Positions 4,843-57,218 of a stretch of DNA of 64,000 bases are shown here, piece by piece. Position numbers and translations under genes: made by a program. Position 1 is the stretch's first letter. Each line of letters begins with the position of its first letter. The notes under the pieces are model-generated. The model saw only the letters and a list, made by a program, of their open reading frames with translations. It was not told the DNA's origin and made no database searches. The DNA comes from Membranipora membranacea (taxonomy: Eukaryota > Bryozoa > Gymnolaemata > Cheilostomatida > Membraniporidae), in assembly GCA_914767715.1 (NCBI GenBank), contig OU612066.1, positions 23,284,283 through 23,348,282 of the forward strand, read 5' to 3'.

Positions 4843-5427
4843 GCTGTGATTGCAACAGTTCTGATGGCAGTTGGTATGTATTATCACTTATTTGTAGATG
4901 ATTTCTAACAGTGTGCCAGTCAAAAAAATGCTGTTATGTTGCGGGTAGCTTGTTGATTTCTAGAATCAATTTATCAACTTCCAAATTCTCATTGGAGAAA
5001 AAATATAATCCAATGTATTGATCTTTGGCTTTAACAGTATCAGCACCATCTATCCATCCAGTAAAAACAGAAGCTTTGGCTGGACCTTGAGAGGGTCGCA
5101 AGGTACCCTGAATCCCAACACTGAAGGTGTATGTGTGCATCGCTGCCAAAACTGAATCTGGTACTAATCGACCGTTGGCATTAGACAAAACTTGCTGTTC
5201 AGAGAGAGTATTAAACAGATGAATATGTCTTTCAGTGAAATCTGCAGAGATAACCTGCCAAGGTTGCAACACCCAACAAAGTACCGGACCTGACTGGAGT
5301 AAGACTGGTTGTGAAGCAAAAGAGTGTGAGAACGCCTGCAGAAAAGTTGGATGGACAGGAGGAAATTGCAATAGTGATTGCTGCTGTTGCTTTAAATAGT
5401 CACCATATATCCTTGCTCAATAATAAA
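4843..5427 (+). CDS. CRP1: divergent ten-cysteine peptide gene, signal exon disrupted
   Basis: The mature-peptide exon 5236-5399 follows acceptor TCTTTCAG and reads KSAEITCQGCNTQQSTG, then the cysteine-rich part with CEAKECENACRKVGW, GGNC and a terminal CCCCFK before TAG. All ten cysteines align with CRP7. AATAAA lies at 5422-5427. The upstream exon keeps only its 3' part, coding VIATVLMAV, and ends at 4873 before GTATGT. The original ATG and first nine or so codons are replaced by unrelated sequence after an AC microsatellite. The only in-frame Met in the retained part is internal (4864-4866), too short to leave a proper signal. No TATA box equivalent to the other copies is seen. The copy may use another upstream exon after the run of T at 4832-4838, or be a pseudogene with an undamaged last exon. 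Confidence 0.65.
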
Positions 5428-5559
5428 ATTAATCTTGATAATGCTGAAAGACAAAAAATGGAAAAAAGATATATTGAAATTTTTTGCAAACTATGAAATC
5501 AGTTACTTCAGTTCGCCCAGATAATTAATTTTGTGAATGAAGTGACTTACAGTTTTTTA

Positions 5560-5742
5560 CGAGGATATCAAGCACTAGATGAAAAAATAGCAAAGCAATT
5601 ACAATTTGATATGTTTTGAATTTTCATTTTCAGCTAGTCAGCTATCTTCCATGCCATCGGATATGGGGTCAGTATCAACTGACCTACACAGTCAAAGTAA
5701 CACCCAGCAGCATGAACAATGCCAGGAAGTGCTTTAGCTGGA
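5560..5742 (+). other. exon-like conserved segment after CRP genes
   Basis: A pyrimidine-rich acceptor (CATTTTCAG) at about 5632 is followed by an open + frame SQLSSMPSDMGSVSTDLH and onward to TAG at about 5740, rich in Ser, Gln and Asn. The same acceptor and first codons recur downstream of CRP4 (about 29860) and CRP9 (about 58960), where the frame closes sooner. It may be a remnant exon of a neighbouring gene copied with the block. The opposite strand also has a 102-codon ORF with no recognisable family. Confidence 0.25.
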
Positions 5743-5940
5743 GATAACCCTTTCTGAGACACAGCCTCCAACATCAATCTTATCTTTCGTCTGAACAAAA
5801 TTGATAGCTTTTCTAGAACATAATTTTCTGAAAGTACTTTTTGAACTTTTGTATTTAAAGTTTTGCAAAGTTTATTATGACTGGCTTTACAACATAAGCG
5901 ACCTTCACTCAGCCTATCTGTTTTAGCGGACCCAATTATC

Positions 5941-5976
5941 ATTATTATTGTTATTATTATTATTATTATTATTATT
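5941..5976. repeat. (ATT)n microsatellite
   Basis: About a dozen ATT/TTA units with one interruption (TTG). It abuts a LINE fragment on the right. Confidence 0.85.
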
Positions 5977-5984
5977 CATATTAC

Positions 5985-7750: not shown

Positions 7751-7939
7751 TGTTTTGACCAGCTGGTAGAAAGACTTAATTAGTAATTGGTAGTGCAAAT
7801 GAAATGACTGACTAGGCCTGTGTAAGCTCAAACCCAGCAAGCTTAATCCCGACACGACCACCCGTTCCAGCCTTACCTCCAGCTTGTCTTAAGGTCTTTA
7901 TATTCTGCAGTTTGAATAAGGTCAATGGGGCTCTAACTG

Positions 7940-18715: not shown

Positions 18716-18766
18716 AGAAATGAAATTAATAACATTATATTTTATTTTAGTTAGGGTAGCTAGTGA

Positions 18767-19565
18767 CTATTTATAGCAACAGCAGCAATCACTATTGCAA
18801 TTTCCTCCTGTCCATCCGACTTTTCTGCAGGCGTTCTCTTACTCTTTTGCTTCACAACCAGTCTTACTCCAGTCATTACCAGTACATGTCGGGGTGTCGC
18901 AACCTTGGCAGGTTATCTCTGCAGATTTCACTGTGGAAAGAGAATCAACTGTTTAATACTCTCTCTGAACAGCAAGTTTTATTTATAAGTAATATTTACA
19001 GTTCACAAAGAGGTGCACACACACACCCTCAGTGGTAGGGTTTAGGGCACCTTGCAACTCTCTAAAGAGCTAATCCAATCTCCTGGATTCTACTGGATGG
19101 ATAGATGGTGTTGACACTATTGAAGCCAGAGGTTAATAATATTATTTGCTCCAAAATATGGAGTTATTGGAAATTGATAAATAGACGCTAGAAGTTATCA
19201 AGCTAACCATAAAAAAACCTATTTTTAGTGGCACACTGTTAGAAATCATTTATAAATGAATAATAATACTTATCAACTGCCATCAGGACTGTTGACGTCA
19301 CCATGATGAACATAAGTCTTGTAAGATTAGCCATAATTTTGAAATAAAGAGGTCTTGTTTGTACCCTGGAATAAAAAATACAGGCTTTATGATTTGTTCG
19401 TTTTGAGATGTGTTAATATACAAGTATGAGTAGCCAATCAGTATGAGACCTACTAATAAAGAAATATAGTTTGTTACAGTTGCAACATCATAATACTGCT
19501 CAAAATATCTAAAGCTAAAGAGTTACATTACTTACTTAGAGCAGAGGTGTCCACGGAATAAGTTC
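18767..19565 (-). pseudogene. CRP2: pseudogene of the ten-cysteine peptide family
   Basis: Minus strand. Signal exon 19365-19274 keeps ATG (19334-19332) and MANLTRLMFIMV, but its donor GTAAGT has become ATAAGT. Mature exon 18930-18767 reads as in CRP1 (AEITCQGC, EAKE) until TAA at 18841-18839 takes the place of the fourth family cysteine. Downstream codons remain readable to the ancestral TAG. It also has an extra cysteine in the first loop (TPTCTGND). The non-coding exon is partly present (about 19536-19565), and the promoter has been replaced by LINE-B. Both lesions are shared with CRP5, so they predate the module duplication. Confidence 0.85.
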
Positions 19566-21806: not shown

Positions 21807-22760
21807 TTTATTTTTGAGCGAGGATATATGGTGACTATTTATAGCAACAGCAGCAATCACTATTGCAATTTCCTCCTGTCCATCCAACACTTTTGCAGGC
21901 GGTTTCACACGATTTTCCTTCACAACCAGTCTTACTCCAGTCAGCTCCGGTACTTTTTGGGGCGTTGCAACCTTGGCAGGTTGTCTCTGCAGATTTCACT
22001 GAAAAATATATTCAACTGTTTAATACTCTCTCTGAACAGCAAGTTTTGACTAATGCCAAAGGTCGATTAGTACCAGAATCAGTTTTGGCAGCGATGCACA
22101 CATACACCTTCAGTGTTGTGATTCAGGGTACCTTGCGACCATCTCAAGGTCAAGCCAAAACTTCTGTTTTTACTGGATGGATAGATGGTGCTGATACTGT
22201 TAAAGCCAAAGATCATTACATTGCGTTATATTTTTCTTCAATGAGTATTTGGAAGTTGATAAATTGATGCTAGAAATCAACAAGCTACCCATACCATAAG
22301 AACATTTTTTGACTGGCACACTGTTAGAAATCCTCTTCAATTAAGTGATAGTACTTACCAACTGCCATCAGAACAGTTGCAATCACCATGATGAACATAA
22401 GTCTTGTAAGATTAGCCATATTAATGAAATGAAGGGGTCTAGTTTGTACTCTGTATCAATAAATACAAGCCTTACATTTTTTTCCCTGAGAAGTTGATTT
22501 ACAACAAGTATGAGTTGCTAAACAGTACTAGACCTAATAATAGAGGAATTTTCTCCAACTTATGATAAATAACTGATCGGTAAAAATATTATTGTCACTG
22601 AAATTTACTTTTTTCTTACCAAATTTATAACAATTGCAACATTTTAATGCTACACATAATTTAGAGCTTAAGAGCTACATTGCTTACTTACTATTTGAGA
22701 GCAGATGTGTCAACGGAATAAGCTGTAATGACTTACTCCTACACAGTTGTAGCTTTTATA
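21807..22760 (-). CDS. CRP3: intact ten-cysteine secreted peptide gene
   Basis: Minus strand. TATA box 22760-22755; non-coding exon about 22730-22692 before GTAAGTAAG; signal exon 22450-22359 with ATG at 22419-22417 and MANLTRLMFIMV, ending in donor GTAAGT; mature exon 21998-21835 ending in TAG, with AATAAA at 21812-21807. CDS is 61+164 nt, or 74 residues. The mature peptide differs from CRP7 at two positions (Thr to Ala after CQGCN, and CKNVGW to CKSVGW). All ten cysteines are kept. An antisense 134-codon ORF covers the mature exon and most of the intron and hides the gene from simple ORF calling. Confidence 0.85.
22755..22760 (-). promoter_or_regulatory. TATA box of CRP3
   Basis: TATAAAAG on the minus strand, about 30 bp before the inferred start. 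A CTGATAA-type GATA-factor site seen just upstream of the other copies' TATA box is changed here (TTACTGAGAA). Confidence 0.75.
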
Positions 22761-27204: not shown

Positions 27205-28149
27205 TATAAAAGCTACAACTGTGCAGGAGTAAGTCATTACAGCTTATTCCGTGGACACATCTGCTCTAAAATAGTAAGTAAGCATTGTAGCTCTTTAGCT
27301 CTAAATTATGTGTAGCATTAAGATGTTGCAATTATTATAAATTTAGTAAGAAAAAAGTAATTTTCAGTGACAATAATATTCTTACCGATCGGTTGTTTAT
27401 CATAAGTTGGAGAAAATTCCTCTATTATTAGGTCTAGTACTGTTTAGCAACTCATACTTCAACTTCTCAGGGAAGAAAATGTAAGGCTTGTATTTATTAT
27501 TACAGAGTACAAACAAGACCCCTTCATTTCATTAATATGGCTAATCTTACAAAACTTATGTTCATCATGGTGATTGCAACAGTTCTGATGGCAGTTGGTA
27601 AGTACTATCACTTATTTGTAGAGGATTTCTAACAGTGTGCCAGTCAAAAAATGTTGTTATGGTATGGGTAGCTTGTTGATTTCTAGCGTCAATTTATCAA
27701 CTTCCAAATACTCATTGAAGAAAAATATAACGCAATGTAATGATCTTTGGCTTTAACAGTATCAGCACCATCTATCCATCCAGTAAAAACAGAAGTTTTG
27801 GCTTGACCTTGAGATGGTCGCAAGGTACCCTGAATCACAACACTGAAGGTGTATGTGTGCATCGCTGCCAAAACTGATTCTGGTACTAATCGACCTTTGG
27901 CATTAGTCAAAACTTGCTGTTCAGAGAGAGTATTAAACAGTTGAATATGTTTTTCAGTGAAATCTGCAGAGACAACCTGCCAAGGTTGCAACACCCCAAA
28001 AAGTACCTGAGCTGACTGGAGTAAGACTGGTTGTGAAGGAAAATCGTGTGAAACCGCCTGCAAAAGTGTTGGATGGACAGGAGGAAATTGCAATAGTGAT
28101 TGCTGCTGTTGCTATAAATAGTCACCATATATCCTCGCTCAAAAATAAA
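27205..28149 (+). pseudogene. CRP4: ten-cysteine peptide gene with premature TGA
   Basis: TATA box 27205-27210; non-coding exon about 27235-27273; signal exon 27506-27597 with ATG at 27537; mature exon 27958-28121; AATAAA 28144-28149. All splice sites are intact. In the mature exon a GGA codon has become TGA at 28008-28010, after CQGCNTPKST, removing eight of the ten cysteines. The codons after it are otherwise as in CRP3 (CKSVGW). The signal peptide has Lys at residue 6 in place of Arg. The single change could be a real nonsense allele or a base-call error. Confidence 0.8.
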
Positions 28150-35826: not shown

Positions 35827-36656
35827 CTATTTATAGCAACAGCAGCACTATTGCAATTTCCTCCTGTCCATCCGACTTTTCTGCAGGCGTTCTCTTACTC
35901 TTTTGCTTCACAACCAGTCTTACTCCAGTCATTACCAGTACATGTCGGGGTGTCGCAACCTTGGCAGGTTATCTCTGCAGATTTCACTGTGGAAAGAGAA
36001 TCAACTGTTTAATACTCTCTCTGAACAGCAAGTTATATTTATAAGTAACAGTTACAGTTCACAAAGAGGTGCACACACACACCCTCAGTGGTAGGGTTTA
36101 GGGCACCTTGCAACTCTCTAAAGAGCTTATCCAATCTCCCGGATTCTACTGGATGGATAGATGGTGTTGACACTATTGAAGCCAGAGGTTAATAATATTA
36201 TTTGCTCCAAAATATGGAGTAATTGGAAATTGATAAACAGACGCTAGAAGTTATAAAGCTAACCATAAAAAAACCTATTTTGAGTGGCACACTGTTAGAA
36301 ATCATTTATAAATGAATTATAATACTTATCAACTGCCATCAGAACTGTTGCAGTCACCATGATGAACATAAGTCTTGTAAGATTAGGCATAATTTTGAAA
36401 TAAAGAGGTCTTGTATGTAACCTGGAATAAAAAATACAGGCTTTATTATTTGTTCGTTTTGAGATGTGCTAATATACAAGTATGAGTAGCCAATCCGTAT
36501 GAGACCTACTAATAAAGAAATATAGTTTGTTACAGTTGCACCATCATAATACTGCTTAAAATATCTAAAGCTAAAGAGTTACATTGCTTACTTAGAGCAG
36601 AGGTGTCCACTGAATAAGTTGCGATGAGTTACCCCTGCACCGTTTTTGCATTTATA
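35827..36656 (-). pseudogene. CRP5: pseudogene, module 2 counterpart of CRP2
   Basis: Minus strand. A TATA box (TATAAATG, 36656-36651) and a non-coding exon (about 36626-36592) remain. Signal exon 36421-36330 has ATG at 36390-36388 and Ala2 changed to Pro; its donor is ATAAGT, as in CRP2. Mature exon 35986-35827 has the same TAA (35897-35895) as CRP2 and also a private 4-bp deletion in the codons for the C-C-C-C block. It may still be transcribed because the promoter survives, but it cannot make the peptide. Confidence 0.85.
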
Positions 36657-38271: not shown

Positions 38272-39225
38272 TTTATTTTTGAGCGAGGATATATGGTGAC
38301 TATTTATAGCAACAGCAGCAATCACTATTGCAATTTCCTCCTGTCCATCCAACATTTTTGCAGGCGGTTTCACACGATTTTCCTTCACAACCAGTCTTAC
38401 TCCAGTCAGCTCCGGTACTTTTTGGGGTGTTGCAACCTTGGCAGGTTGTCTCTGCAGATTTCACTGAAAAATATATTCAACTGTTTAATACTCTCTCTGA
38501 ACAGCAAGTTTTGACTAATGCCAAAGGTCGATTAGTACCAAAATTAGTTTTGGCAGCGATGCACACATACACCTTCAGTGTTGTGATTCAGGGTACCTTG
38601 CGACCATCTCAAGGTCAAGCCAAAACTTCTGTTTTTACTGGATGGATAGATGGTGCTGATACTGTTAAAGCCAAAGATCAATACATTGGGTTATATTTTC
38701 CTTCAATGAGTATTTGGAAGTTGATAAATTGACGCTAGAAATCAACAAGCTACCCATACCATAAAAACATTTTTTGACTGGCACACTGTTAGAAATCCTC
38801 TACAAATAAGTGATAGTACTTACCAACTGCCATCAGAACTGTTGCAATCACCATGATGAACATAAGTCTTGTAAGATTAGCCATATTAATGATATGAAGG
38901 GGTCTTGTTTGTACTCTGTAATAATAAATACAAGCCTTACATTTTTTTCCCTGAGAAGTTGATTTACAGCAAGTATGAGTTGCTAAACAGTACTAGACCT
39001 AATAATAGAGGAATTTTCTCCAACTTATGATAAATAACCGATTGCTAAAAATATTATTGTCACTGAAATTTTCTTTTTTCTTACTAAATTTATAACAATT
39101 GCAACACTTTAATGCTACACATAATTTAGAGCTAAAGAGCTACATTGCTTACTTACTATTTGAGAGCAGATGTGTCAACGGAATAAGCTGTAATGACTTA
39201 CTCCTACACAGTTGTAGCTTTTATA
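38272..39225 (-). CDS. CRP6: intact ten-cysteine secreted peptide gene
   Basis: Minus strand. TATA box 39225-39220; non-coding exon about 39195-39157; signal exon 38915-38824 with ATG at 38884-38882; mature exon 38463-38300 ending in TAG; AATAAA 38277-38272. The 74-residue product has the same mature peptide as CRP7 (NTPKSTGADWSK loop, CKNVGW). Splice sites are all consensus. It lies head to head with CRP7, with about 6 kb between their promoters. Confidence 0.87.
39220..39225 (-). promoter_or_regulatory. TATA box of CRP6
   Basis: TATAAAAG on the minus strand, identical in context to CRP3. Confidence 0.75.
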
Positions 39226-39993: not shown

Positions 39994-40410
39994 CAGTGGT
40001 GTATATTAGCACTCACGGCCCACGAATTTCCGTGAGTGGCTGAATAGCTCAGTGTGTAGAGCGTCTGCTTTATAATCACTGTTAATCAGATGGTTGTGGG
40101 TTCGAATCCCATCAAGGTCAGTTTTTTTTCAAATGGGTGCTTTATAACTGGAGCATTTTTACCGTAATCTTCTACTGCTATTGAGTTGTTTTCTGAAAGT
40201 ACCCAACAGCTCAGTAAGCTATTGAAATACCTCTCTGCTTGCACTATTTTGCTACCGATATGCAAAAAATTCCGTGGTGGGAGGGCGCTTAAGCGCCCCT
40301 CCCACACCCTCCCCGCCACGCCTACGGCGTGTGGATCGGGCTGCGCCCGATCATTATGCTCATCTCTAAAAAAAGTCAGTGAGTGAAAATTTTTAGAATA
40401 TACGCCCCTG
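39994..40410. mobile_element. hAT-like non-autonomous element with tRNA-like core
   Basis: Ends CAGTGGTGTATATT and AATATACGCCCCTG form an imperfect 14-bp inverted repeat of hAT type (CAGNGG start). The 8-bp flanks TCAGCAAC (39986-39993) and TCAGACAC (40411-40418) are an imperfect target duplication. Module 1 shows the empty site TCAGCAACCTTTGAC near 23490. Inside, 40040-40120 has an A-box-like TAGCTCAGTGTGTAGAGCG and the B box GGTTCGAATCC, then a T run, as in a tRNA-derived SINE. A GC-rich palindrome follows at about 40270-40350. Confidence 0.8.
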
Positions 40411-40843: not shown

Positions 40844-43070
40844 TTCTAAATTGTAATCAACAAAGAGATCTGAGTCATGGAAATAAAAGAGAGGGAGTCT
40901 TCAGTGATTCCAGAGAGTCAGAATTATATTGAATTACAAAGATTAAGAAACAAAAAGTAATATCCTTGTTTTCATAATTAGACACAGCGTACTTAAAGTG
41001 TTTGTAAAGGATCAGGTTTTTTGGTATCATTCTAGAGATCTCAGTTTAGTTTAGAACATCATTCTATGTTCAAAAGCAGCCTGTGGCCCAGTTAAGACTT
41101 CTTTGCCCTCAAAGTTGGGATGAGATGGTACTAAAAAGGTACTATTTTTTTCCTGTTGAGTTTTGATCACTTGTTGAAAATAGTACCTTTTTAGTACCTC
41201 AGATTATAATGGGAATATACAGTACTTTGTAACTAAGGCGTATTGTTATTACACAGTGGTTTTGATATTCTGCATGTGATATCAAAACACACAGAACTTA
41301 TCTATTGAATAAATGAGTGAATACAAGGCATTATTTATCTGTCCCATGGGAGTCAGCTGGTAAAATGGGATAGTGTATGACATTTCATAATTCAATGACA
41401 AAGCTAATGATCTAAATCGATCATGGCAAAAAATTACAGCTCTAGCTAAATGTTGAAGGTCGTGGGTTCGAATCCCACTGAGGTCTACTGACTGCTGGGG
41501 TTTGGTTGGACCCCCAGGTGTGCTCCGACCTGCCTGCAAACTGGGAGCAAATAGGCGCAGATATTGCAGCCTAGCCCCTAAGGCATTTAGTATTTCGCCG
41601 CCCATGCTTCGGGATGTGGCGTGTGATATGTCATCTGATTTTAATCAACCTTTTTTTAATCAACCGCTAAGTATTTCAAGGTTTTGTTTACATTAATGAG
41701 ATTGTGGCTAGCCATTCCATTCAAACTCCGTCTCCAGCCCGCATGAAAACCAGTGATATGCTTCAATTATTAGCTTCATGAATAGCGGCTTCAATAGAAT
41801 TTCAATGGAAGATACAAAATTTACACAGGTAGATTGTGTGTTTTTCTTGAAAATATGTATTTCCAAATTGCACAGAAATCTAAAATAAATTCTTTGTAAA
41901 TCTCGACATTTCAGGCATTAGGATGATGTTGAAATCCAGAGCATGCAATGATTAATACTGAGTGATTTGAGGTTTTGACAATCTTTTCAACAGTTCTTGC
42001 AAATATTCTGATGTTTAAACACTCAAGGTTTATTTGGATAAACTGTGTTGTTTACATTGTTTAAAAACTAGAAATTACAAGTCACAAAGTAAATTCAACT
42101 CAATAAGATTGTCATCTAGTTGTTTCGGACTTGAGGGTGATGTTAAATGTAAATGAATTTGACTGCCTCCTAAAGAGGAGTATTGATAATCGTGTTAGCA
42201 GTGGGATACCTGGAGAAACTTTCTATTTTTTCATTAGATCTTGTCCATCTGTGTGCATCACAGATACTCAGCACATCTTATCATAGACTATCAATATTAC
42301 TGACTGAGTGCAACAGGTCTTATGAGAGCACATGTCAATGCACACAACAGTCACTTAGGAAATTAATTTGTCGAGTTTTTGAGTTATTTTGTCAGTATGG
42401 ATCTGATTTGGGAGGCTATTGTTGGGTAAATTGCAAGATTTGGTACAAACTATAAAGCATTGCATGGACCATTTTTGGGTGAATCTGAAATAAGCAAGGC
42501 TTTGTCAGCAGGAAGAATCAATTGCTCCAGTATAATCTTATTTTAACAGAGCAAACAAGCACATCGGTCTGAAATGAAACTCACTCATTTTCATGCTTGA
42601 AAAACAGCAGACAGGGAATGCGTCAAAGTCATAGTCGTTGATTGTAATGTACAGTGGTTTTTCTAATCTTGTCTTCAACACGGGCTCATAACAGATAAAA
42701 AGGTTGTTTTGATTAGTGGTCTCAACTCATCAAGTAGTGTGTATACAAATTATAGAACCTTCTTTTGAACTTTTATGTCATCAGACAGACTTGTGAGTGC
42801 CTTTGTCATTTATTTGCAAAAGTTGTTATCTAACCACAATAGTCACTAATACTACAGTATATCCCAAATAACAGGCTCATCACAAATCGCCTGGACTAGT
42901 TGGGCGGTGCATGAGTAGGCAACTCAATGTTGTTAACTTATAACCCCCAAACCTACCAGACCAAATAACCCTCATGACTGATTTTATATGCAAATGCATG
43001 TGTGATAGCTGTCTTAATCTGATTTCAAGCTCAAAAATGATACCAAGAAACCTGTTCCTTTACAAACACT

Positions 43071-44126
43071 TTAATAAGTAAAGCTAGTTATTATTGTTAT
43101 TTTGTGAAAATCATATTTTGTTTATTATGGAGAGAATAATGAATGCTTGCCAAACTTGTAAAACTATGGGAACCCACAACTGTCTGGCAAAATAAGGAAT
43201 TGAAACACGTCACACCATCACAATGTGTCTTTCCAAATTCTTCTATAGCAATACATCACTAACCACTACCCATGGCAAATAGTTGCATACAGAGCAAGCC
43301 AGTTTACCCAATACAGGTCCTGAAAGTGTCACTTACTTTATAGACCAGGATGCCTCATATGCTATATGTGATGTTTACTTTTGGGACTTCTCATCTGCAT
43401 TTAACACAATTCAATAGCAAACATCTTAAGGGTTCTACGGTTCTAGACTGCCATGTCATAAACTTGTCACTGAATTTTCTTGTTAGTAGAACCAAAAGAA
43501 AAATCTGTCTAAAAGTGAAGTCATATATGGGGTTGTTTTCTCACGATTAGGAGTAAATTTCATGTAAACTTTCGTTCGATTCGGATTCTTATAATTTGTG
43601 GAACGTTGTATGTTAACAATGCACGTAACCAGATAGTATAACTTTTCACAAAATGCTATTTGAGTGGCTGCCTGTTTTGATTGAAAAGTCAAGGTCATAT
43701 CTATGCAAACACAACTTTGGTAAAAAGATGGAGTGGATGATCAATATGTAGAGTTTCTCATTCAATTTTGGACCTGGAGTAAGAGGGGAAGGGATACAGT
43801 GAATTATGAGTATCAAATTGAAACAATTATTAGGAGATGGTTGAGGCATACATAGAAGCTGAATCACTGGACGGTTGGTATAAATAACGAGTAACAGCTT
43901 CTCCTTGGTATAAACCTTTTTACTTCATATCACTGTTAGGCCTAGGGTTCGTATTGGCGCAGGAGGATTGCGCTCATACAATTTTCGGAGATGAGAATCA
44001 TGTGTTGCAGGTTGACATTAGTACGAAATTAAATTTGCAAGAATAAATAGAAATTTGCATGAGAACGTGTGACCTTACCTTAAATCAATCACCACAAATA
44101 CTGGGCCCCTTCTTTATCTAAATGCA
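43071..44126. other. 1.06-kb segment absent from module 1
   Basis: Present in units A, B and C, but missing in module 1 between CTTTACAAACAC and AGTAATGGAACG (26164). Short ORFs only; no terminal repeats or target duplication are obvious, so a deletion in module 1 is as likely as an insertion. Confidence 0.6.
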
Positions 44127-44979
44127 GTAATGGAACGATACTCAAGTAAGCAGGACAAACCTTGCATAACAAGATGTATTTCTATGATGAAGATCTGCAG
44201 CAGGGCTGTACCTATGACTTATGAAGTGGTGGGGCAAGTGTTGTATTGGTACTATTATGTTGCAATGAGGGTGCAACAGGGGCTCGGGAGGGGGGGGGGG
44301 CAACAGGAGCGCAGGAAGGCCTGCAGGAAGGTTTGTTACTATAGAGATAAATATTCTCAACTGCTGGTAAAATGGGAGACAATCTGGAACATGTGAGCCC
44401 AAATGTTATAAGGAATGTAACATGACTCATTACTCTGTCACACTCAAACTCGCTATCAGGAAAAAGCACACGACAGACGATGTGAAACTTGTCTGGTGTT
44501 GATTTGTGCGCATTAAGTACTTCGTTGAATGTTTTATATGTGTCAAAACTGTTATGTAAACAAAAAATAATACAATATAGTTATCGGTATATTTCATGAG
44601 AATATTCTTTATGACTATGAATGATTATATTGTATGTATTATATGTATGTTATGTTATATTTTTCAGAGTGACTTTCCTTGATCACCACTGTAAAACTGC
44701 ATTTGCTAATCTTATTTGGTTGCCAAAATCTTGCCTCATATTTCTTAAGAAAAGTGAATCCAAAAATATTAATTCCTATTACAAACAAAATAAATTAAAA
44801 TGAAATTGTGTCCAAATATATGTGAACTTTATCAAATGCAATGAAATTTGGTGTCAGGGACGAAGTGTCATGGAAGAAGCAGTCAATTGCTTTATACTGA
44901 GATATAAGATGGCATAAGGAGATTTCATTGCTTTGCATCAGCGCATGGCAGGTGGCACGAATGTACGATGTACAAATGT

Positions 44980-45047
44980 ATGAACAGGATATACGAAGAG
45001 GATATACGAACAGGATATACGAACAGGATGTACGAACAGGATATTAT
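44980..45047 (+). repeat. 13-bp promoter minisatellite of CRP7, about 5 units
   Basis: Units GAACAGGATATAC with one 12-bp variant (GAAGAGGATATAC type), ending GGATATTATCC about 130 bp upstream of the TATA box. Confidence 0.9.
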
Positions 45048-45180
45048 CCGATCCTAATATCTCATCCATGAGAGAAAAATTAAAAATAAAACTTCTATTT
45101 TAATCTTTGTAACCTTATCTAATCTAAAGTTTTAATGTAAGTTAAATCTATATACATTGTTATCAGTAACCCAGTGCTCC

Positions 45181-45186
45181 TATAAA
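45181..45186 (+). promoter_or_regulatory. TATA box of CRP7
   Basis: TATAAAAG, with an initiator-like TCATTAC about 30 bp downstream (start near 45212). GTTATCAG, a GATA-factor type site, lies 15-25 bp upstream. Confidence 0.75.
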
Positions 45187-46130
45187 AGCTACAACTGTGC
45201 AGGAGTAAGTCATTACAGCTTATTCCGTGGAGACATCTGCTCTCAAATAGTAAGTAAGCATTGTGGCTCTTTAGCTCTAAATTATGTGTAGCATTAAGAT
45301 GTTGCAATTATTATAAATTTAGTAAGAAAAAAGTAAATTTCAGTGACAATAATATTCTTACCATCGGTTGTTTATCATAAGTTGGAGAAAATTCCTCTAT
45401 TATTAGGTCTAGTACTGTTTAGCAACTCATACTTGTTGTTAATCAACTTCTCAGGGAAGAAAATGTAAGGCTTGTATTTATTATTACAGAGTACAAACAA
45501 GACCCCTTCATTTCATTAATATGGCTAATCTTACAAGACTTATGTTCATCATGGTGATTGCAACAGTTCTGATGGCAGTTGGTAAGTACTATCACTTATT
45601 TGTAGAGGATTTCTAACAGTGTGCCAGTCAAAAAATGATGTTATGGTATGGGTAGCTTGTTGATTTCTAGCGTCAATTTATCAACTTCCAAATACTCATT
45701 GAAGGAAAATATAACGCAATGTATTGATCTTTGGCTTTAACAGTATCAGCACCTATCCATCCAGTAAAAATAGAAGTTTTGGCTTGACCTTGAGATGGTC
45801 GCAAGGTACCCTGAATCACAACACTGAAGGTGTATGTGTGCATCGCTGCCAAAACTGATTCTGGTACTAATCGACCTTTGGCATTAGTCAAAACTTGCTG
45901 TTCAGAGAGAGTATTAAACAGTTGAATATGTTTTTCAGTGAAATCTGCAGAGACAACCTGCCAAGGTTGCAACACCCCAAAAAGTACCGGAGCTGACTGG
46001 AGTAAGACTGGTTGTGAAGGAAAATCGTGTGAAACCGCCTGCAAAAATGTTGGATGGACAGGAGGAAATTGCAATAGTGATTGCTGCTGTTGCTATAAAT
46101 AGTCACCATATATCCTCGCTCAAAAATAAA
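45181..46130 (+). CDS. CRP7: intact ten-cysteine secreted peptide gene (type copy)
   Basis: Exons: non-coding about 45212-45249; 5' UTR plus signal 45490-45581 (ATG 45521-45523); mature 45939-46102 (TAG 46100-46102); AATAAA 46125-46130. Introns are GT-AG and phase 1 joins exactly, giving 74 residues. Residues 1-20 are hydrophobic after MANLTR; cleavage after Ser23 or Ala24 (VKSA/ETTC) is likely. The mature part of about 50 residues has cysteines spaced C-x2-C-x14-C-x4-C-x3-C-x9-C-x3-C-C-C-C. C-x3-C, then GGNC (a gamma-core-like G-x-C), then C-x-C within the CCCC block fit the cysteine-stabilised alpha-beta plan of defensins and short toxins. Secretion is well supported; antimicrobial, venom or signalling function is open. 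It is head to head with CRP6. Confidence 0.9.
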
Positions 46131-47577
46131 ATTAATCTTGATAATGCTGAAAACATAAATGATCCTTGTTTGACTACATTAAGCATCAATGTAGTAAATT
46201 GATCTTTATTTTTTGTGAAAAATCATCTGTAGATTTTAACACCCTTTGATTTTTACAAAAAATACTATCTTCTGAATAAATATGCATTATTATTATCTTT
46301 TGTGTTTGCATTATCTGCTGCTGCAAGAGTACTCAACTTTATTCAAAATTTGTCATTCTTTTTTTTTTAAAAACCTGACACAGTTCATTTGCAAACACTT
46401 ACATTCAGAAATTGATGGTCATACAGGCAGTAGTCACATAGCCAAAAGACCATTTGAAGTTGCTCAATCTAAGTTTGACACCTGTCAATCTGAGTCATCA
46501 ATCGGATTCATAACTTATGTCCACTAAGCATTCCAAAAGACTTGGGAAATCAACAAGCTAAAAAGACGCTCAGGCCTCGTCTTCAAAGAGTCTTCTTTAT
46601 AAGTAAAATGAAACCAATCACATGCTGCTCACTGCCTTCCCATGAGGGCTTCATCCATAATCCTGCAGGCAAGGATGCCCCTTGTTGTGCTTGCAATTGA
46701 TTGACTAGTGTTTTGGAATGGACATTTTTCCCTCTGAACATCTTTTTTGATACAACAAGAAATTTGAAAGACCAGTTTACTCAAATTAAGTATTACTTGT
46801 CAGTATAATCTCTATAGCTTTGACTTATTTGAAGATATTGTCCAACAGCCAAGTCTTTTGTTACGAAGCCAGAGGAAGTGTATCTCTGGCCCTATAGTAA
46901 TATTAATCGTTATACTTTATTTCAATTTAAACTGATGAGGCGGCAATATCTATTCCAAGTCAGCAACTAAAGTCTAATCATGTATGTTGGTTAAAGGCTT
47001 TGAGTTTGTTATCAAATAAATTTAAATTAATGCATTCTTATCATGGTAGTAAATTGTTTATAGAGATCTCTATTAATTGCCTATGGATGTATGTGAATTA
47101 TTTAGGATATATAATTATGTCAAGACATATTCATTATATTGCCCTACCAAATATTATATAAAACTCTCTGCCCTTTTTGATGTCGTAGTATTCTACATAG
47201 AGGAGCTGTGTTCATGTCAACAGCTGGTTTCTATAATTTCTTCACCAATCACAAATTGTAAGGATTAAAATTAATTTTGTTATTTGAGTACTATGGTAAT
47301 TATAATGGAATATGGTATTTGACTGGTTGCTTATTCTGACAACGAATTTAATTTCATGTATGATCTGGCTTTATAACATAAGAGATGTTACAACGTTTTT
47401 GATGGCTGAGCTAATTTGATTGCTAAAACAGGCTTTTATTATTCTTATAGATATATTACATCCTATTCTTTGGTTGAAAATAATATTTGATGAGCCCGAA
47501 GTGGCTTTTACTGTCACGTCATGATGCGTGTGGTTTTTAAAATTTGATGATATAATGCGAAAATTTGAGCAACGATT

Positions 47578-48209
47578 TATATATATATATATATATACTT
47601 TATTCTGTCTCTGCCGTTATGGTTAAGAAATATTGGTTTTGTAGAGCTAAAAAGTTACTAGTGATATAAAAGTCTGCACATTATAAAATATTATCTTTTG
47701 AAGAAAACGGAGTTTAAAAATTTCACACATTGTGCTCTAAAACATTGTCTCCGTAGCTCTATCTTACATTTGATATTACAGTAGCGCCCTGATGGGAGTG
47801 TAGCTACGGCGAATATTGGCTCATTGTCTGTTGCATACATACGAAGACAACGGTTCTTAAAAACTCTGGTAAAAACCTCGCACAGAGATGGGACTTCACA
47901 GTCAGCTAACGGTTGATATAACATCATTAATGGAGTTGCGACATGTTTTGGATATATGGCCAAATAATGTACATAGATGATAAATAAAAACACATTCAAT
48001 GAAAGTATAGTAACATCGCATTCTGATTGGTTTAGAAATACCAAGAGAGCACAACTTCTTCATAATAAACAGGCGCTTACGAGCTTTCTTGATTACTGCC
48101 TCAGAATGTGCCTTAAAGCTCAACTTGTGGTCAACAGTGGTACCTAAATATACAAATGACTCGACCTGCTCAACTACTGTGCCATTGATTACCAGGGGAT
48201 CACATGCAC
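47578..48209 (-). mobile_element. LINE-C fragment at tandem junction A/B
   Basis: A (TA)n tract at 47578-47597 is the 3' tail of a minus-strand LINE. Reading on the minus strand from 48209: DPLVINGTVVEQVESFVYLG, then VDHKLSFKAHSEAVIKKARK and RLFIMKKLCSLGISKP, the usual post-catalytic region of a CR1/L2-like RT. 5' truncated at 48209, exactly where unit B starts. Confidence 0.85.
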
Positions 48210-50534
48210 TTTTTCTAATCTTGTCTTCAACACGGGCTCATAACAGATAAAAAGGTTGTTTTGATTAGTGGTCTCAACTCATCAAGTAGTGTGTATACAA
48301 ATTATAGAACCTTCTTTTGAACTTTTATGTCATCAGACAGACTTGTGAGTGCCTTTGTCATTTATTTGCAAAAGTTGTTATCTAACCACAATAGTCACTA
48401 ATACTACAGTATATCCCAAATAACAGGCTCATCACAAATCGCCTGGACTAGTTGGGCGGTGCATGAGTAGGCAACTCAATGTTGTTAACTTATAACCCCC
48501 AAACCTACCAGACCAAATAACCCTCATGACTGATTTTATATGCAAATGCATGTGTGATAGCTGTCTTAATCTGATTTCAAGCTCAAAAATGATACCAAGA
48601 AACCTGTTCCTTTACAAACACTTTAATAAGTAAAGCTAGTTATTATTGTTATTTTGTGAAAATCATATTTTGTTTATTATGGAGAGAATAATGAATGCTT
48701 GCCAAACTTGTAAAACTATGGGAACCCACAACTGTCTGGCAAAATAAGGAATTGAAACACGTCACACCATCACAATGTGTCTTTCCAAATTCTTCTATAG
48801 CAATACATCACTAACCACTACCCATGGCAAATAGTTGCATACAGAGCAAGCCAGTTTACCCAATACAGGTCCTGAAAGTGTCACTTACTTTATAGACCAG
48901 GATGCCTCATATGCTATATGTGATGTTTACTTTTGGGACTTCTCATCTGCATTTAACACAATTCAATAGCAAACATCTTAAGGGTTCTACGGTTCTAGAC
49001 TGCCATGTCATAAACTTGTCACTGAATTTTCTTGTTAGTAGAACCAAAAGAAAAATCTGTCTAAAAGTGAAGTCATATATGGGGTTGTTTTCTCACGATT
49101 AGGAGTAAATTTCATGTAAACTTTCGTTCGATTCGGATTCTTATAATTTGTGGAACGTTGTATGTTAACAATGCACGTAACCAGATAGTATAACTTTTCA
49201 CAAAATGCTATTTGAGTGGCTGCCTGTTTTGATTGAAAAGTCAAGGTCATATCTATGCAAACACAACTTTGGTAAAAAGATGGAGTGGATGATCAATATG
49301 TAGAGTTTCTCATTCAATTTTGGACCTGGAGTAAGAGGGGAAGGGATACAGTGAATTATGAGTATCAAATTGAAACAATTATTAGGAGATGGTTGAGGCA
49401 TACATAGAAGCTGAATCACTGGACGGTTGGTATAAATAACGAGTAACAGCTTCTCCTTGGTATAAACCTTTTTACTTCATATCACTGTTAGGCCTAGGGT
49501 TCGTATTGGCGCAGGAGGATTGCGCTCATACAATTTTCGGAGATGAGAATCATGTGTTGCAGGTTGACATTAGTACGAAATTAAATTTGCAAGAATAAAT
49601 AGAAATTTGCATGAGAACGTGTGACCTTACCTTAAATCAATCACCACAAATACTGGGCCCCTTCTTTATCTAAATGCAGTAATGGAACGATACTCAAGTA
49701 AGCAGGACAAACCTTGCATAACAAGATGTATTTCTATGATGAAGATCTGCAGCAGGGCTGTACCTATGACTTATGAAGTGGTGGGGGCAAGTGTTGTATT
49801 GGTACTATTATGTTGCAATGAGGGTGCAACAGGGGCTCGGGAGGGGGGGGGGGCAACAGGAGCGCAGGAAGGCCTGCAGGAAGGTTTGTTACTATAGAGA
49901 TAAATATTCTCAACTGCTGGTAAAATGGGAGACAATCTGGAACATGTGAGCCCAAATGTTATAAGGAATGTAACATGACTCATTACTCTGTCACACTCAA
50001 ACTCGCTATCAGGAAAAAGCACACGACAGACGATGTGAAACTTGTCTGGTTGTTGATTTGTGCGCATTAAGTACTTCGTTGAATGTTTTATATGTGTCAA
50101 AACTGTTATGTAAACAAAAAATAATACAATATAGTTATCGGTATATTTCATGAGAATATTCTTTATGACTATGAATGATTATATTGTATGTATTATATGT
50201 ATGTTATGTTATATTTTTCAGAGTGACTTTCCTTGATCACCACTGTAAAACTGCATTTGCTAATCTTATTTGGTTGCCAAAATCTTGCCCTCATATTTCT
50301 TAAGAAAAGTGAATCCAAAAATATTAATTCCTATTACAAACAAAATAAATTAAAATGAAATTGTGTCCAAATATATGTGAACTTTATCAAATGCAATGAA
50401 ATTTGGTGTCAGGGACGAAGTGTCATGGAAGAAGCAGTCAATTGCTTTATACTGAGATATAAGATGGCATAAGGAGATTTCATTGCTTTGCATCAGCGCA
50501 TGGCAGGTGGCACGAATGTACGATGTACAAATGT

Positions 50535-50602
50535 ATGAACAGGATATACGAAGAGGATATACGAACAGGATATACGAACAGGATGTACGAACAGGATATT
50601 AT
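50535..50602 (+). repeat. 13-bp promoter minisatellite of CRP8, about 5 units
   Basis: Same unit sequence and number as CRP7. Confidence 0.9.
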
Positions 50603-50735
50603 CCGATCCTAATATCTCATCCATGAGAGAAAAATTAAAAATAAAACTTCTATTTTAATCTTTGTAACCTTATCTAATCTAAAGTTTTAATGTAAGTTAA
50701 ATCTATATACATTGTTATCAGTAACCCAGTGCTCC

Positions 50736-51685
50736 TATAAAAGCTACAACTGTGCAGGAGTAAGTCATTACAGCTTATTCCGTGGAGACATCTGCTCTCA
50801 AATAGTAAGTAAGCATTGTGGCTCTTTAGCTCTAAATTATGTGTAGCATTAAGATGTTGCAATTATTATAAATTTAGTAAGAAAAAAGTAAATTTCAGTG
50901 ACAATAATATTCTTACCATCGGTTGTTTATCATAAGTTGGAGAAAATTCCTCTATTATTAGGTCTAGTACTGTTTAGCAACTCATACTTGTTGTTAATCA
51001 ACTTCTCAGGGAAGAAAATGTAAGGCTTGTATTTATTATTACAGAGTACAAACAAGACCCCTTCATTTCATTAATATGGCTAATCTTACAAGACTTATGT
51101 TCATCATGGTGATTGCAACAGTTCTGATGGCAGTTGGTAAGTACTATCACTTATTTGTAGAGGATTTCTAACAGTGTGCCAGTCAAAAAATGATGTTATG
51201 GTATGGGTAGCTTGTTGATTTCTAGCGTCAATTTATCAACTTCCAAATACTCATTGAAGGAAAATATAACGCAATGTATTGATCTTTGGCTTTAACAGTA
51301 TCAGCACCTATCCATCCAGTAAAAATAGAAGTTTTGGCTTGACCTTGAGATGGTCGCAAGGTACCCTGAATCACAACACTGAAGGTGTATGTGTGCATCG
51401 CTGCCAAAACTGATTCTGGTACTAATCGACCTTTGGCATTAGTCAAAACTTGCTGTTCAGAGAGAGTATTAAACAGTTGAATATGTTTTTCAGTGAAATC
51501 TGCAGAGACAACCTGCCAAGGTTGCAACACCCCAAAAAGTACCGGAGCTGACTGGAGTAAGACTGGTTGTGAAGGAAAATCGTGTGAAACCGCCTGCAAA
51601 AATGTTGGATGGACAGGAGGAAATTGCAATAGTGATTGCTGCTGTTGCTATAAATAGTCACCATATATCCTCGCTCAAAAATAAA
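50736..51685 (+). CDS. CRP8: intact ten-cysteine secreted peptide gene
   Basis: TATA 50736-50741; exons about 50767-50804, 51045-51136 (ATG 51076-51078) and 51494-51657 (TAG at the end); AATAAA 51680-51685. Precursor and introns appear identical to CRP7, as expected from the tandem duplication. If the duplication is real it simply doubles dosage of one peptide. Confidence 0.87.
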
Positions 51686-53132
51686 ATTAATCTTGATAAT
51701 GCTGAAAACATAAATGATCCTTGTTTGACTACATTAAGCATCAATGTAGTAAATTGATCTTTATTTTTTGTGAAAAATCATCTGTAGATTTTAACACCCT
51801 TTGATTTTTACAAAAAATACTATCTTCTGAATAAATATGCATTATTATTATCTTTTGTGTTTGCATTATCTGCTGCTGCAAGAGTACTCAACTTTATTCA
51901 AAATTTGTCATTCTTTTTTTTTTAAAAACCTGACACAGTTCATTTGCAAACACTTACATTCAGAAATTGATGGTCATACAGGCAGTAGTCACATAGCCAA
52001 AAGACCATTTGAAGTTGCTCAATCTAAGTTTGACACCTGTCAATCTGAGTCATCAATCGGATTCATAACTTATGTCCACTAAGCATTCCAAAAGACTTGG
52101 GAAATCAACAAGCTAAAAAGACGCTCAGGCCTCGTCTTCAAAGAGTCTTCTTTATAAGTAAAATGAAACCAATCACATGCTGCTCACTGCCTTCCCATGA
52201 GGGCTTCATCCATAATCCTGCAGGCAAGGATGCCCCTTGTTGTGCTTGCAATTGATTGACTAGTGTTTTGGAATGGACATTTTTCCCTCTGAACATCTTT
52301 TTTGATACAACAAGAAATTTGAAAGACCAGTTTACTCAAATTAAGTATTACTTGTCAGTATAATCTCTATAGCTTTGACTTATTTGAAGATATTGTCCAA
52401 CAGCCAAGTCTTTTGTTACGAAGCCAGAGGAAGTGTATCTCTGGCCCTATAGTAATATTAATCGTTATACTTTATTTCAATTTAAACTGATGAGGCGGCA
52501 ATATCTATTCCAAGTCAGCAACTAAAGTCTAATCATGTATGTTGGTTAAAGGCTTTGAGTTTGTTATCAAATAAATTTAAATTAATGCATTCTTATCATG
52601 GTAGTAAATTGTTTATAGAGATCTCTATTAATTGCCTATGGATGTATGTGAATTATTTAGGATATATAATTATGTCAAGACATATTCATTATATTGCCCT
52701 ACCAAATATTATATAAAACTCTCTGCCCTTTTTGATGTCGTAGTATTCTACATAGAGGAGCTGTGTTCATGTCAACAGCTGGTTTCTATAATTTCTTCAC
52801 CAATCACAAATTGTAAGGATTAAAATTAATTTTGTTATTTGAGTACTATGGTAATTATAATGGAATATGGTATTTGACTGGTTGCTTATTCTGACAACGA
52901 ATTTAATTTCATGTATGATCTGGCTTTATAACATAAGAGATGTTACAACGTTTTTGATGGCTGAGCTAATTTGATTGCTAAAACAGGCTTTTATTATTCT
53001 TATAGATATATTACATCCTATTCTTTGGTTGAAAATAATATTTGATGAGCCCGAAGTGGCTTTTACTGTCACGTCATGATGCGTGTGGTTTTTAAAATTT
53101 GATGATATAATGCGAAAATTTGAGCAACGATT

Positions 53133-53764
53133 TATATATATATATATATATACTTTATTCTGTCTCTGCCGTTATGGTTAAGAAATATTGGTTTTGTAGA
53201 GCTAAAAAGTTACTAGTGATATAAAAGTCTGCACATTATAAAATATTATCTTTTGAAGAAAACGGAGTTTAAAAATTTCACACATTGTGCTCTAAAACAT
53301 TGTCTCCGTAGCTCTATCTTACATTTGATATTACAGTAGCGCCCTGATGGGAGTGTAGCTACGGCGAATATTGGCTCATTGTCTGTTGCATACATACGAA
53401 GACAACGGTTCTTAAAAACTCTGGTAAAAACCTCGCACAGAGATGGGACTTCACAGTCAGCTAACGGTTGATATAACATCATTAATGGAGTTGCGACATG
53501 TTTTGGATATATGGCCAAATAATGTACATAGATGATAAATAAAAACACATTCAATGAAAGTATAGTAACATCGCATTCTGATTGGTTTAGAAATACCAAG
53601 AGAGCACAACTTCTTCATAATAAACAGGCGCTTACGAGCTTTCTTGATTACTGCCTCAGAATGTGCCTTAAAGCTCAACTTGTGGTCAACAGTGGTACCT
53701 AAATATACAAATGACTCGACCTGCTCAACTACTGTGCCATTGATTACCAGGGGATCACATGCAC
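53133..53764 (-). mobile_element. LINE-C fragment at tandem junction B/C
   Basis: Copy of 47578-48209 with the same (TA)n tail and the same 5' truncation point. Confidence 0.85.
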
Positions 53765-56076
53765 TTTTTCTAATCTTGTCTTCAACACGGGCTCATAACA
53801 GATATAAAGGTTGTTTTGATTAGTGGTCTCAACTCATCAAGTAGTGTGTATACAAATTATAAAACTTTCTTTTGAACTTTTATGTCATCAGACAGACTTG
53901 TGAGTGCCTTTGTCATTTATTTGCAAAAGTTGTTATCTAACCACAATAGTCACTAATATTACAGTATATCCCAAATAACAGGCTCATCACAAATCGCCTG
54001 GACTAGTTGGGCGGTGCATGAGTAGGCAACTCAATGTTGTTAACTTATAACCCCCAAACCTACCAGTCCAAATAACCCTGATTACTGATTTTATATGCAA
54101 ATGCATGTGTGATAGCTGTCTTAATCTGATTTCAAGCTCAAAAATGATACCAAGAAACCTGTTCCTTTACAGACACTTTAATAATTAAAGCTAGTTATTA
54201 TTGTTATTTTGTGAAAATCATATTTTGTTTATTATGGAGAGAATAATGAATGCTTGCCAAACTTGTAAAACTATGGGAACCCACAACTGTCTGGCAAAAT
54301 AAGGAATTGAAACACGTCACACCATCACAGTGTGTCTTTCCAAATTGTTCTATAGCAATACATCACTAACCACTACCCATGGCAAATAGTTGCATACAGA
54401 GCAAGCCAGTTTACCCAATACAGGTCCTGAAAGTGTCACTTACTTTATAGACCAGAATGCCTCATATGCTATATGTGATGTTTACTTTTGGGACTTCTCA
54501 TCTGCATTTAACACAATTCAATAGCAAACATCTTAAGGGTTCTAGGGTTCTAGACTGCCATGTCATAAACTTGTCACTGAATTTTCTTGTTAGTAGAACC
54601 AAAAGAAAAATCTGTCTAAAAGTGAAGTCATATATGGGGTTGTTTTCTCACGATTAGGAGTGAATTTCACGTAAACTTTCGTTCGGATTGGGATTCCCAC
54701 AATTTGTGGAACGTTGTATGTTAACAATGCACGTAACCAGATAGTACAAATTTTCACAAAATGCTATCTGAGTGGCTGCCTGTTTTGATGGAAAAGTCAA
54801 GGTCATATCTATGCAAACACAACTTTGGTAAAAAGATGGAGTGGATGATCAATATGTAGAGTTTCTCATTAAATTTTGGACCTGGAGTAAGAGGGGAAGG
54901 GATACAGTGAATTATGAGTATCAAATTGAAACAATTATTAGGAGATGGTTGAGGCATACATAGAAGCTGAATCACTGGACGGTTGGTATAAACAACGAGT
55001 AACAGCTTCTCCTTGGTATAAACCTTTTTATTTAATATCACTGTTAGGCCTAGGGTTCATATTTGCGCAGGAGGATTGCGCTCATACAATTTTCGGAGAT
55101 GAGAATCATGTGTTGCAGGTTGACATCAGTACGAAATTAAATTTGCAAGAATAAGTAGAAATTTGCATGAGAACGTGTGACCTTACCTTAAATCAATCAC
55201 CACAAATACTGGGCCCCTTCTTTATCTAAATGCAGTAATGGAACGATACTCAAGTAAGCAGGACAAACATTGCATAAAAAGATGTATTTCTATGATGAAG
55301 ATCTGCAGCAGGGCTGTACCTATGACTTGTGGTGGGGCAAGTGTTGTGTTGGTACTATTATGTTGCAATGAGGGTGCAACAGGGGCTTGGGGGGGGCAAC
55401 AGGAGGGCAGGAAGGCCTGCAGGAATGTTTGTTACTGTAGAGATAAATATTCTCAATTGCTGGTAAAATGGAAGACAATCTGGAACATGTGAGCCCAAAT
55501 GTTATAAGGAATGTAACATGACTCATTACTCTGTCACACTCAAACTCGCTATCAGGAAAAAGCACACGACAGAGGATGTAAAACTTGTCTGGTGTTGACT
55601 TGTGTGCATAAAGTACTTCGTTGAATGCTTTATATGTGTCAAAACTGTTATGCAAACAAAAAATAATACAATATAGTTATCGGTATATTTCATGAGAATA
55701 TTCTTTATGACTATGAATGATTATATTGTATGTATTATACGTATGTTATGTTATATTTTTCAGAGTGACTTCCCTTGATCACCACTGTAAAACTGCATTT
55801 GCTAACCTTATTTGGTTAACCAAAATCTTGCCTCATATTTCTTAAGAAAAGTGAATCCAAAAATAGTAATTCCGATTACAAACAAAATAAATTAAAATGA
55901 AATTGTGTCCAAATATATGTGAACTCTATCAAATGCAATGAAATTTGGTGTCAGGGACGAAGTGTCATGGAAGAAGCAGTCAATTGCTTTATACTGAGAT
56001 ATAAGATGGCATAAGGAGATTCGATTGCTTTGCATCAGCGCATGGCAGGTGGCACGAATGTACGATGTACAAATGT

Positions 56077-56130
56077 ATGAACAGGATATACAAACAGGAT
56101 ATACGAACAGGATGAACGAACAGGATATTA
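56077..56130 (+). repeat. 13-bp promoter minisatellite of CRP9, about 4 units
   Basis: Includes variant units CAAACAGGATATA and GATGAAC. Confidence 0.9.
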
Positions 56131-56264
56131 TCCGATCCTAAAATCTTATCCATGAGAGAAAAATTAAAAATATAACTTCTATTTTAATTTTTGTAACCTT
56201 ATTAAATCTAAAGTTTTAATGTAAGTTTTATCTATATGCATTGTTATCAGTAACCCAGTGCTCC

Positions 56265-57218
56265 TATAAAAGCTACAACTGTGCAGGAGTAAGTCATTAC
56301 AGGTTATTCCGTGGACACATCTGCTCTCAAATAGTAAGTAAGCATTGTAGCTCTTTGGCTCTAAATTATGTGTAGCATTAAGATGTTGCAATTATTATCA
56401 ATTTAGTAAGAAAAAAGTAAATTTCAGTGACAATAATATTCTTACCGATCGGTTGTTTATCATAAGTTGGAGAAAATTCCTTTATTATTAGGTCTAGTAC
56501 TGTTTAGCAACTCATACTTGTTGTTAATCAACTTCTCAGGGAAGAAAATGTAAGGCTTGTATTTCTTATTACAGAGTACAAACAAGACCCCTTCATTTCA
56601 TTAATATGGCTAATCTTACAAGACTTATGTTCATCATGGTGATTGCAACAGTTCTGATGGCAGTTGGTAAGTACTATCACTTATTTGTAGAGGATTTCTA
56701 ACAGTGTGCCAGTCAAAAAATGTTGTTATGGTATGGGTAGCTTGTTGATTTCTAGCGTCAATTTATCAACTTCCAAATAATCATTGAAGAAAAATATAAC
56801 CCAATGTATTGATCTTTGGCTTTAACAGTATCAGCACTATCTATCCATCCAGTAAAGACAGAAGGTTTGTCTTGACCTTGAGATGGTCGCAAGGTACCCT
56901 GAATCACAACACCGAAGGTGTATGTGTGCATCGCTGCCAAAACTGATTCTGGTACTAATCGACCTTTGGCATTAGTCAAAACTTGCTGTTCAGAGAGAGT
57001 ATTAAACAGTTGAATATGTTTTTCAGTGAAATCTGCAGAGACAACCTGCCAAGGTTGCAACACCCCAAAAAGTACCGGAGCTGACTGGAGTAAGACTGGT
57101 TGTGAAGGAAAATCATGTGAAACCGCCTGCAAAAATGTTGGATGGACAGGAGGAAATTGCAATAGTGATTGCTGCTGTTGCTATAAATAGTCACCATATA
57201 TCCTCGCTCAAAAATAAA
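56265..57218 (+). CDS. CRP9: intact ten-cysteine secreted peptide gene
   Basis: TATA 56265-56270; exons about 56296-56333, 56575-56666 (ATG 56606-56608) and 57027-57190 (TAG); AATAAA 57213-57218. The mature peptide is identical to CRP7, with one silent change in the Ser codon of GKSC (TCA for TCG). The intron has several substitutions relative to CRP7, so the protein has been kept while non-coding sites moved. Confidence 0.87.

Follow-up and report, generated by a model that had tools for sequence, protein, structure and literature searches.

What is encoded by nine related loci within positions 4843 to 57218 of the window, a 64,000-nucleotide stretch of chromosome 2 of Membranipora membranacea, the sea mat, a colonial marine bryozoan? 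The initial annotation of this DNA had proposed a hidden multi-copy family of three-exon genes for a secreted ten-cysteine peptide, and the sequence supports that proposal. Judging by the sequence and a structure model, the loci probably belong to a bryozoan family of secreted cysteine-stabilised alpha-beta (CS-alpha-beta, defensin-like) host-defence peptides, neutral to acidic and expanded in Membranipora.

Nine loci of one gene family on chromosome 2

All nine loci were found in the span first given for them, but the claim that they share the same structure holds for only five intact copies (g3, g6, g7, g8, and g9), the other four (g1, g2, g4, and g5) being damaged (Table 1). The layout is a TATA box, a non-coding exon, a signal exon, a phase-1 intron, and a mature exon, and in the five intact copies the TATA, splice, and polyA signals are all present. 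For instance, the g7 junctions 45249/45490 and 45581/45939 obey the GT-AG rule, the second intron is in phase 1, and the coding part of exon 3 (45939-46102) measures 164 nt, which confirms the borders proposed for this gene. The g7 precursor has 74 residues, and the mature peptide, of about 50 residues, is encoded by one exon. The window genes and three C6 copies share a TATA box followed, about 30 nt on, by TCATT, and exon conservation exceeds intron conservation between g2 and g7 (p=1e-5). g8 is identical to g7 in all regions compared. The homology of g1 starts in the middle of exon 2, with no homologous TATA, exon 1, or ATG; g2 is also without the TATA region, and g4 is probably a pseudogene. 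The nine copies form three lineages, namely g1, g2 plus g5, and the remaining six, and sequence comparison indicates that they are not independent, having arisen through segmental duplication and 5.55-kb tandem duplication. Independent evidence comes from other chromosomes. In a separate Rfam scan, one tRNA-like match (40038-40120) was at the gathering threshold and two more fell below it.

Table 1 Features of the peptide gene family (window positions)
Feature	Position	Strand	Details
g1, diverged 5'-truncated copy	4846..5457	+	mature exon 5238-5396; protein-level identity 81%
g2, pseudogene	18767..19365	-	core cysteine changed to stop; exon-2 donor GT to AT
g3, intact gene, two residue changes	21807..22760	-	TATA 22760; exon 2 22450-22359; exon 3 coding part 21998-21835
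g4	27205..28149	+	promoter and splice sites kept; in-frame TGA 28008-28010 in mature exon
g5, pseudogene	35827..36656	-	stop and donor loss shared with g2; frameshift ahead of CCCC tail
g6, intact gene	38272..39225	-	TATA 39225; exon 2 38915-38824; exon 3 coding part 38463-38300
Tandem duplication array, 5.55-kb unit	42658..58676		holds g7, g8, g9; 98.4% identity over 10.5 kb
g7, intact gene	45181..46130	+	TATA 45181; exon 1 to 45249; exon 2 45490-45581 (ATG 45521); exon 3 coding part 45939-46102; AATAAA 46125
g8, intact gene	50736..51685	+	exon 2 51045-51136; exon 3 coding part 51494-51657
g9, intact gene	56265..57218	+	exon 2 56575-56666; exon 3 coding part 57027-57190; AATAAA 57213

A conserved ten-cysteine array

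The cysteine spacing reported at the outset, C-x2-C-x14-C-x4-C-x3-C-x9-C-x3-CCCC, has six stop-free occurrences in the window and none in 60 simulated windows. Seven of the ten cysteines never vary among 16 chosen copies, and each of the other three is present in 15. The classical C-x-C is masked by the CCCC tail; the standard core consists of cysteines 3, 4, 5, 6, 8, and 10, and the other four are extra to it. These six core cysteines, together with the C-x3-C, GXC, and C-x-C patterns, are found in the window copies and kept in 14 of the 16 aligned copies, those departing from the pattern being C9b and C9c. The GGNC loop and the tail are strongly conserved, and variation lies elsewhere in the peptide. 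Net charge ranges from +1 to -7 across 12 peptides, 11 of which are neutral to acidic and one of which is +1.

Genome-wide copies and coding constraint

Matches to the mature exon occur at 43 places on four chromosomes, and eight of these contain stops. Of 18 chosen pairs, the C6 and C9 pairs and those between chromosomes gave dN/dS of 0.06 to 0.31 wherever dS was finite; the cross-chromosome values alone were 0.22 to 0.31. No purifying signal was found within the C2 cluster in dN/dS or in change counts; eight C2 copies show a minimum of 26 amino-acid changes, none of them at a cysteine. In four of six comparisons the mature exon and the intron change at similar rates, with the signal exon nearly unchanged. 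Positive selection, suggested by pairwise dN > dS, was not significant when each change was counted once.

Part of this picture would suit a decaying, unexpressed cluster of duplicates: four of the nine window copies are damaged, stops occur among the genome matches, and the C2 cluster lacks a purifying signal. Such a fate appears very improbable, however, given five intact window copies with all their signals and the cross-chromosome dN/dS. Alternatively, the real gene might lie on the opposite strand, with the cysteine peptide as its shadow. A longer antisense ORF had been said to mask each locus; one of at least 139 aa indeed covers seven of the nine (139 to 160 aa), but stops break the frame in g2 and g5. 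Searching proteins with this ORF returned a single match, 90% identical and encoded on a 1.6-kb JGI contig, but this protein is most likely a product of the same family of DNA. Pfam gave no match to the ORF, pN/pS between g1 and g9 in its frame does not fall below that of another antisense frame, and it is the sense peptide that is conserved across chromosomes, so that there is next to no chance of the antisense ORF being the gene. On this sequence evidence the family members are real coding genes, in which a phase-1 intron separates the conserved signal exon from a single mature-peptide exon and coding constraint is seen between chromosomes.

Predicted CS-alpha-beta fold

The fold is most likely CS-alpha-beta (superfamily as defined in PMC5116183), as had been guessed, and both sequence matches to solved structures and an AlphaFold model support this. 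In separate searches, the solved-structure matches that are CS-alpha-beta peptides by name numbered 12 of 12, 14 of 14, and 19 of 20. With a 16-member profile they were 9 of 9, the best being the arthropod defensin 2ru0 (E=0.004). None of three scrambled controls matched any CS-alpha-beta peptide: of two cysteine-preserving shuffles, one matched nothing and the other a single ribosomal protein, and the reversed sequence also had no match. AlphaFold predicted, at moderate confidence, a beta-alpha-beta-beta arrangement (strand 5-8, helix 27-36, strands 41-45 and 48-52), and the predicted model aligned to 3e8y with an rmsd of 0.8 Å over 30 residues. The 50 structures listed in that alignment were defensins, scorpion toxins, or cystine-dense peptides, and a family absent from them (e.g., macins) is not thereby excluded. 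The C1 copy weakly matched the Pfam family Defensin-like PF24552 (15.9 bits against a curated cut-off of 27); it was the only one of 16 members to match at all, and none reached the cut-off.

Relation to known peptide families

The initial annotation recognised no named family with this spacing, but comparison does not support the view that the spacing belongs to no known class. The core, C-x4-C-x3-C-x9-C-x4-C-x-C, is identical in spacing to that of the short scorpion potassium-channel toxins (alpha-KTx) and aligns ungapped to cobatoxin (1pjv), a solved CS-alpha-beta peptide; the bryozoan peptides differ in their four extra cysteines and in the residue preceding the fourth core cysteine, which is basic in the toxins (Lys in cobatoxin) but Asn in all 16 aligned copies. 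Defensin genes of molluscs and arthropods are reported in PMC6435467 to have a phase-1 intron ahead of an unsplit mature exon, a layout that the predicted genes also have. The same paper gives the invertebrate defensin motif as CX4-15CX2HCX6-9GX1CX4-9CX1C, and the window copies fit its spacing. With the CS-alpha-beta (cis-) defensins known from molluscs and arthropods they share the C-x4-C-x3-C-x7-G-x-C-x4-C-x-C core, the GXC gamma-core, and this intron layout, but they differ in having ten cysteines, an N-terminal CxGC, and a consecutive CCCC, in lacking His before the third core cysteine (absent in 16 of 16 aligned copies), and in not being cationic (net positive in 1 of 12 peptides). The unusual part is the four extra cysteines.

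Other cysteine-rich families were compared as well. Macins (theromacin and hydramacin) are likewise built on a CS-alpha-beta core, with eight to ten cysteines, and C7 of the ten-cysteine macin reference array, as given in PMC5116183, is present; however, the bryozoan extra cysteine lies inside C-x-C, no cysteine corresponding to C5 was found between C4 and C6, and none corresponding to C10 follows soon after C9, with only the C9b reading frame having one, ten residues on. Plant gamma-thionins and defensins (1gps, 5kk4) differ in their extra cysteines, and the bryozoan gene is an animal one. Big defensins are also secreted cysteine-rich host-defence peptides, but they are trans-defensins of another fold with a hydrophobic N-terminal domain, whereas in the predicted gene nothing but the signal exon comes before the cysteine domain. 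In a search of 5.8 billion proteins, neither the 74-residue precursor nor a three-copy mature alignment had enough words in common with any entry to yield a candidate; the mature peptide had no relative in viral and prokaryote contigs and no match in a near-identity search of plasmids. A retroelement reverse transcriptase had one 30%-identical match, in a mussel-symbiont record, and none in viral contigs.

Proposed mechanism and function

The peptide would be cut from its signal and would adopt a beta-alpha-beta-beta fold with three classical disulfides (cysteines 3-6, 4-8, and 5-10), and in the CCCC strand cysteines 7 and 9 would form two further disulfides with the CxGC strand at the N-terminus. 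After secretion into body fluid or at the body surface, the peptide may bind a specific microbial target; with its range of net charge, it is unlikely to act as a cationic peptide that lyses membranes in bulk. We consider it slightly better than an even chance that these peptides form a bryozoan-specific CS-alpha-beta class with five disulfides, its CxGC strand doubly clamped to the four-cysteine terminal strand, that is, a neutral-to-anionic, extra-stable defensin scaffold whose roughly forty copies, some of them damaged, are spread over four chromosomes.

Host defence, venom, and signalling had all been suggested as functions. Of these, venom looks unlikely. An ion-channel toxin-like peptide acting against predators or neighbours would account for the alpha-KTx core spacing, but the Lys of cobatoxin that has a role in channel block is replaced here by Asn, and bryozoans are not known to have a venom apparatus, which makes a toxin improbable. 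A smaller but real share of the probability goes to the same fold doing another job, as an extracellular signalling, enzyme-inhibiting, symbiont-control, or surface-chemistry peptide. The prevailing neutral to acidic charge and the strong conservation of the GGNC loop and tail, against a more variable remainder, are consistent with such a job; however, tandem expansion with pseudogenes, and a fast mature exon beside a near-constant signal exon, fit immune effectors better. Host defence is the role we prefer.

Bryozoan immunity is little known, and this family offers candidate bryozoan immune peptides. Their predicted fold differs from that of the bryozoan big defensin, which PMC7203481 reports in a transcriptome of Flustra foliacea. 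The family also illustrates how short three-exon genes can evade ORF-based reading, and it would show an unusual way to add disulfides to a very common scaffold.

Gene structure and integrity of the window copies

Judged from the sequence, the ten-cysteine peptide family consists of real genes, which ORF reading overlooks. All nine loci of the initial annotation (g1 to g9) were found in place, and the exact ten-cysteine pattern without a stop occurred six times in the window compared to zero times in 60 simulated windows. The exon borders of g7 were as annotated, with GT-AG sites at both introns and a second intron in phase 1. However, the common structure ascribed to all nine loci was intact in only five (g3, g6, g7, g8, and g9). 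The g1 copy starts in the middle of exon 2, g4 has a stop inside the mature exon (exon 3), and g2 and g5 both have a core cysteine replaced by a stop and have lost the donor, with an additional frameshift in g5. The window copies arose through segmental duplication as well as through a 5.55-kb tandem array.

The 5′ part of g1 is gone, but a pyrimidine-rich AG directly precedes the remaining signal codons, and this copy may thereby have gained another exon further upstream. In the g2 and g5 pseudogenes, exons are more conserved than introns despite the common lesions, as if the two had functioned as a separate subfamily before they died.

Coordinates of the genes and other elements (window positions unless a contig is named)
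Feature	Position	Remarks
g1	4780-4875	Stretch with the pyrimidine-rich AG; 5′ part of g1 gone
g2 pseudogene	18734-19564
g5 pseudogene	35785-36620
g7 exon 2	45490-45581	ATG at 45521
g7 exon 3, coding part	45939-46102
Insertion, ~415 bp	39995-40410	Probably a tRNA-derived SINE; tRNA-like head (Rfam tRNA, 37 bits); not in the paralogous segment near 23500
Non-LTR retrotransposon, two decayed copies	11900-14380; 30630-33040	~91-94% identity; endonuclease and reverse transcriptase remnants
Repeat, 336-bp unit	7876-8859; 30060-30643; 59142-59489	Almost three tandem copies at the first position; shorter stretches at the last two
L068 (contig 9 stretch)	C9:15357500-15364500	Two cysteine variants

Distribution across the genome

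The assembly of this cheilostome bryozoan, Membranipora membranacea tzMemMemb1.1, is described in PMC10290214. The genome searched spans 339 Mb in 18 contigs, and the window lies on contig 2 at 23284283-23348282. The mature exon had 43 matches in this genome. Of these, 23 are on contig 2, nine of them inside the window; contig 6 has 16, contig 9 has 3, and contig 1 has a single match. A second search added one more on contig 9; its hit on contig 7 was weak (E=0.18) and is left out of the family count. Stops were present in 8 of the 43, and in 2 more the match is confined to the second half of the peptide. The contig 6, 9, and 1 copies that aligned over most of their length showed 36 to 60% identity. 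Among 16 copies picked to span the diversity, several of them closely related and therefore not 16 independent tests, seven of the ten cysteines were invariant and three were kept in 15 of 16. This set includes C9b, where CSYC replaces CCCC, and C9c, where one core cysteine is Phe. It excludes near-duplicates and any copy carrying a stop or a frameshift. Also excluded are two full-length, stop-free copies with cysteine losses, L066 (CCCF) and L037 (two core cysteines).

A signal exon with a phase-1 GT donor was found for contig 6 copies L034, L035, and L036 (that of L035 again within the longer stretch L072). Among three contig 9 copies scanned, one had such an exon, as did the contig 1 copy. 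A crude scan found no signal exon for C9a, C9b, or L070, and most other contig 6 stretches covered end short of its position. The window genes and three contig 6 copies have in common CTATAAAAGC followed by TCATT ∼30 nt on; further TATA-like matches are also present in those contig 6 stretches. The gene structure is shown at the level of sequence.

Selection and the antisense ORF

Coding constraint is clear between chromosomes. Over 18 chosen copy pairs, dN/dS was 0.22 to 0.30 for contig 2 against contig 6, 0.06 to 0.30 within contig 6, and 0.21 to 0.31 for pairs with contig 9, several of which are at dS >1 and hence rough; dS was saturated against contig 1. Within contig 2, the ratio was 0.73 to 3.1 or undefined. 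There, the exons of g2 and g7 were more alike than their introns (227/256 versus 379/504; p=1e-5), but exon 3 (152/164) and intron 2 (333/357) of g1 and g7 were similarly conserved. Six comparisons were made within contig 2. In four, the mature exon diverged at about the intron rate (6 to 8.5% versus 6 to 7%), and in the other two it diverged more slowly (1.2% versus 2.5 to 2.8%); the signal exon had 0 or 1 change per 61 bases in all six. Positive selection among eight contig 2 copies was not significant (p=0.44; 26 amino-acid and 5 silent changes, each counted once). None of the 26 hit a cysteine, for which we calculate a chance of ∼0.002 if changes were random over nonsynonymous sites.

The longer antisense ORF said to mask each copy is open in seven of nine but broken in g2 and g5. 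It showed no selective signal of its own and no Pfam match, and is best read as a by-product. Its single relative was a 90%-identical protein on a JGI contig of 1607 bases; a JGI dataset probably contains DNA of the ten-cysteine gene family from the same or a related animal.

Fold and possible function

The sequence places the peptide in the cysteine-stabilised alpha-beta fold class. The proposal of a new peptide class does not stand for a class of its own but does for a new variant within the defensin kind of this fold, and the bryozoan family reads as defensin-like. The peptide would be secreted, would contain five disulfides, and may serve in host defence. The net charge of 12 peptides ranged from +1 to −7, and a specific target is therefore likelier than cationic membrane lysis. 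A channel blocker is spoken against: cobatoxin, a short scorpion potassium-channel toxin, has before its fourth core cysteine a Lys with a role in channel block, whereas all 16 aligned bryozoan copies have Asn there. As for the defensin-like peptide itself, L068 holds natural variants, a copy with CSYC for CCCC and one with Phe for a core cysteine, which could assist disulfide assignment.
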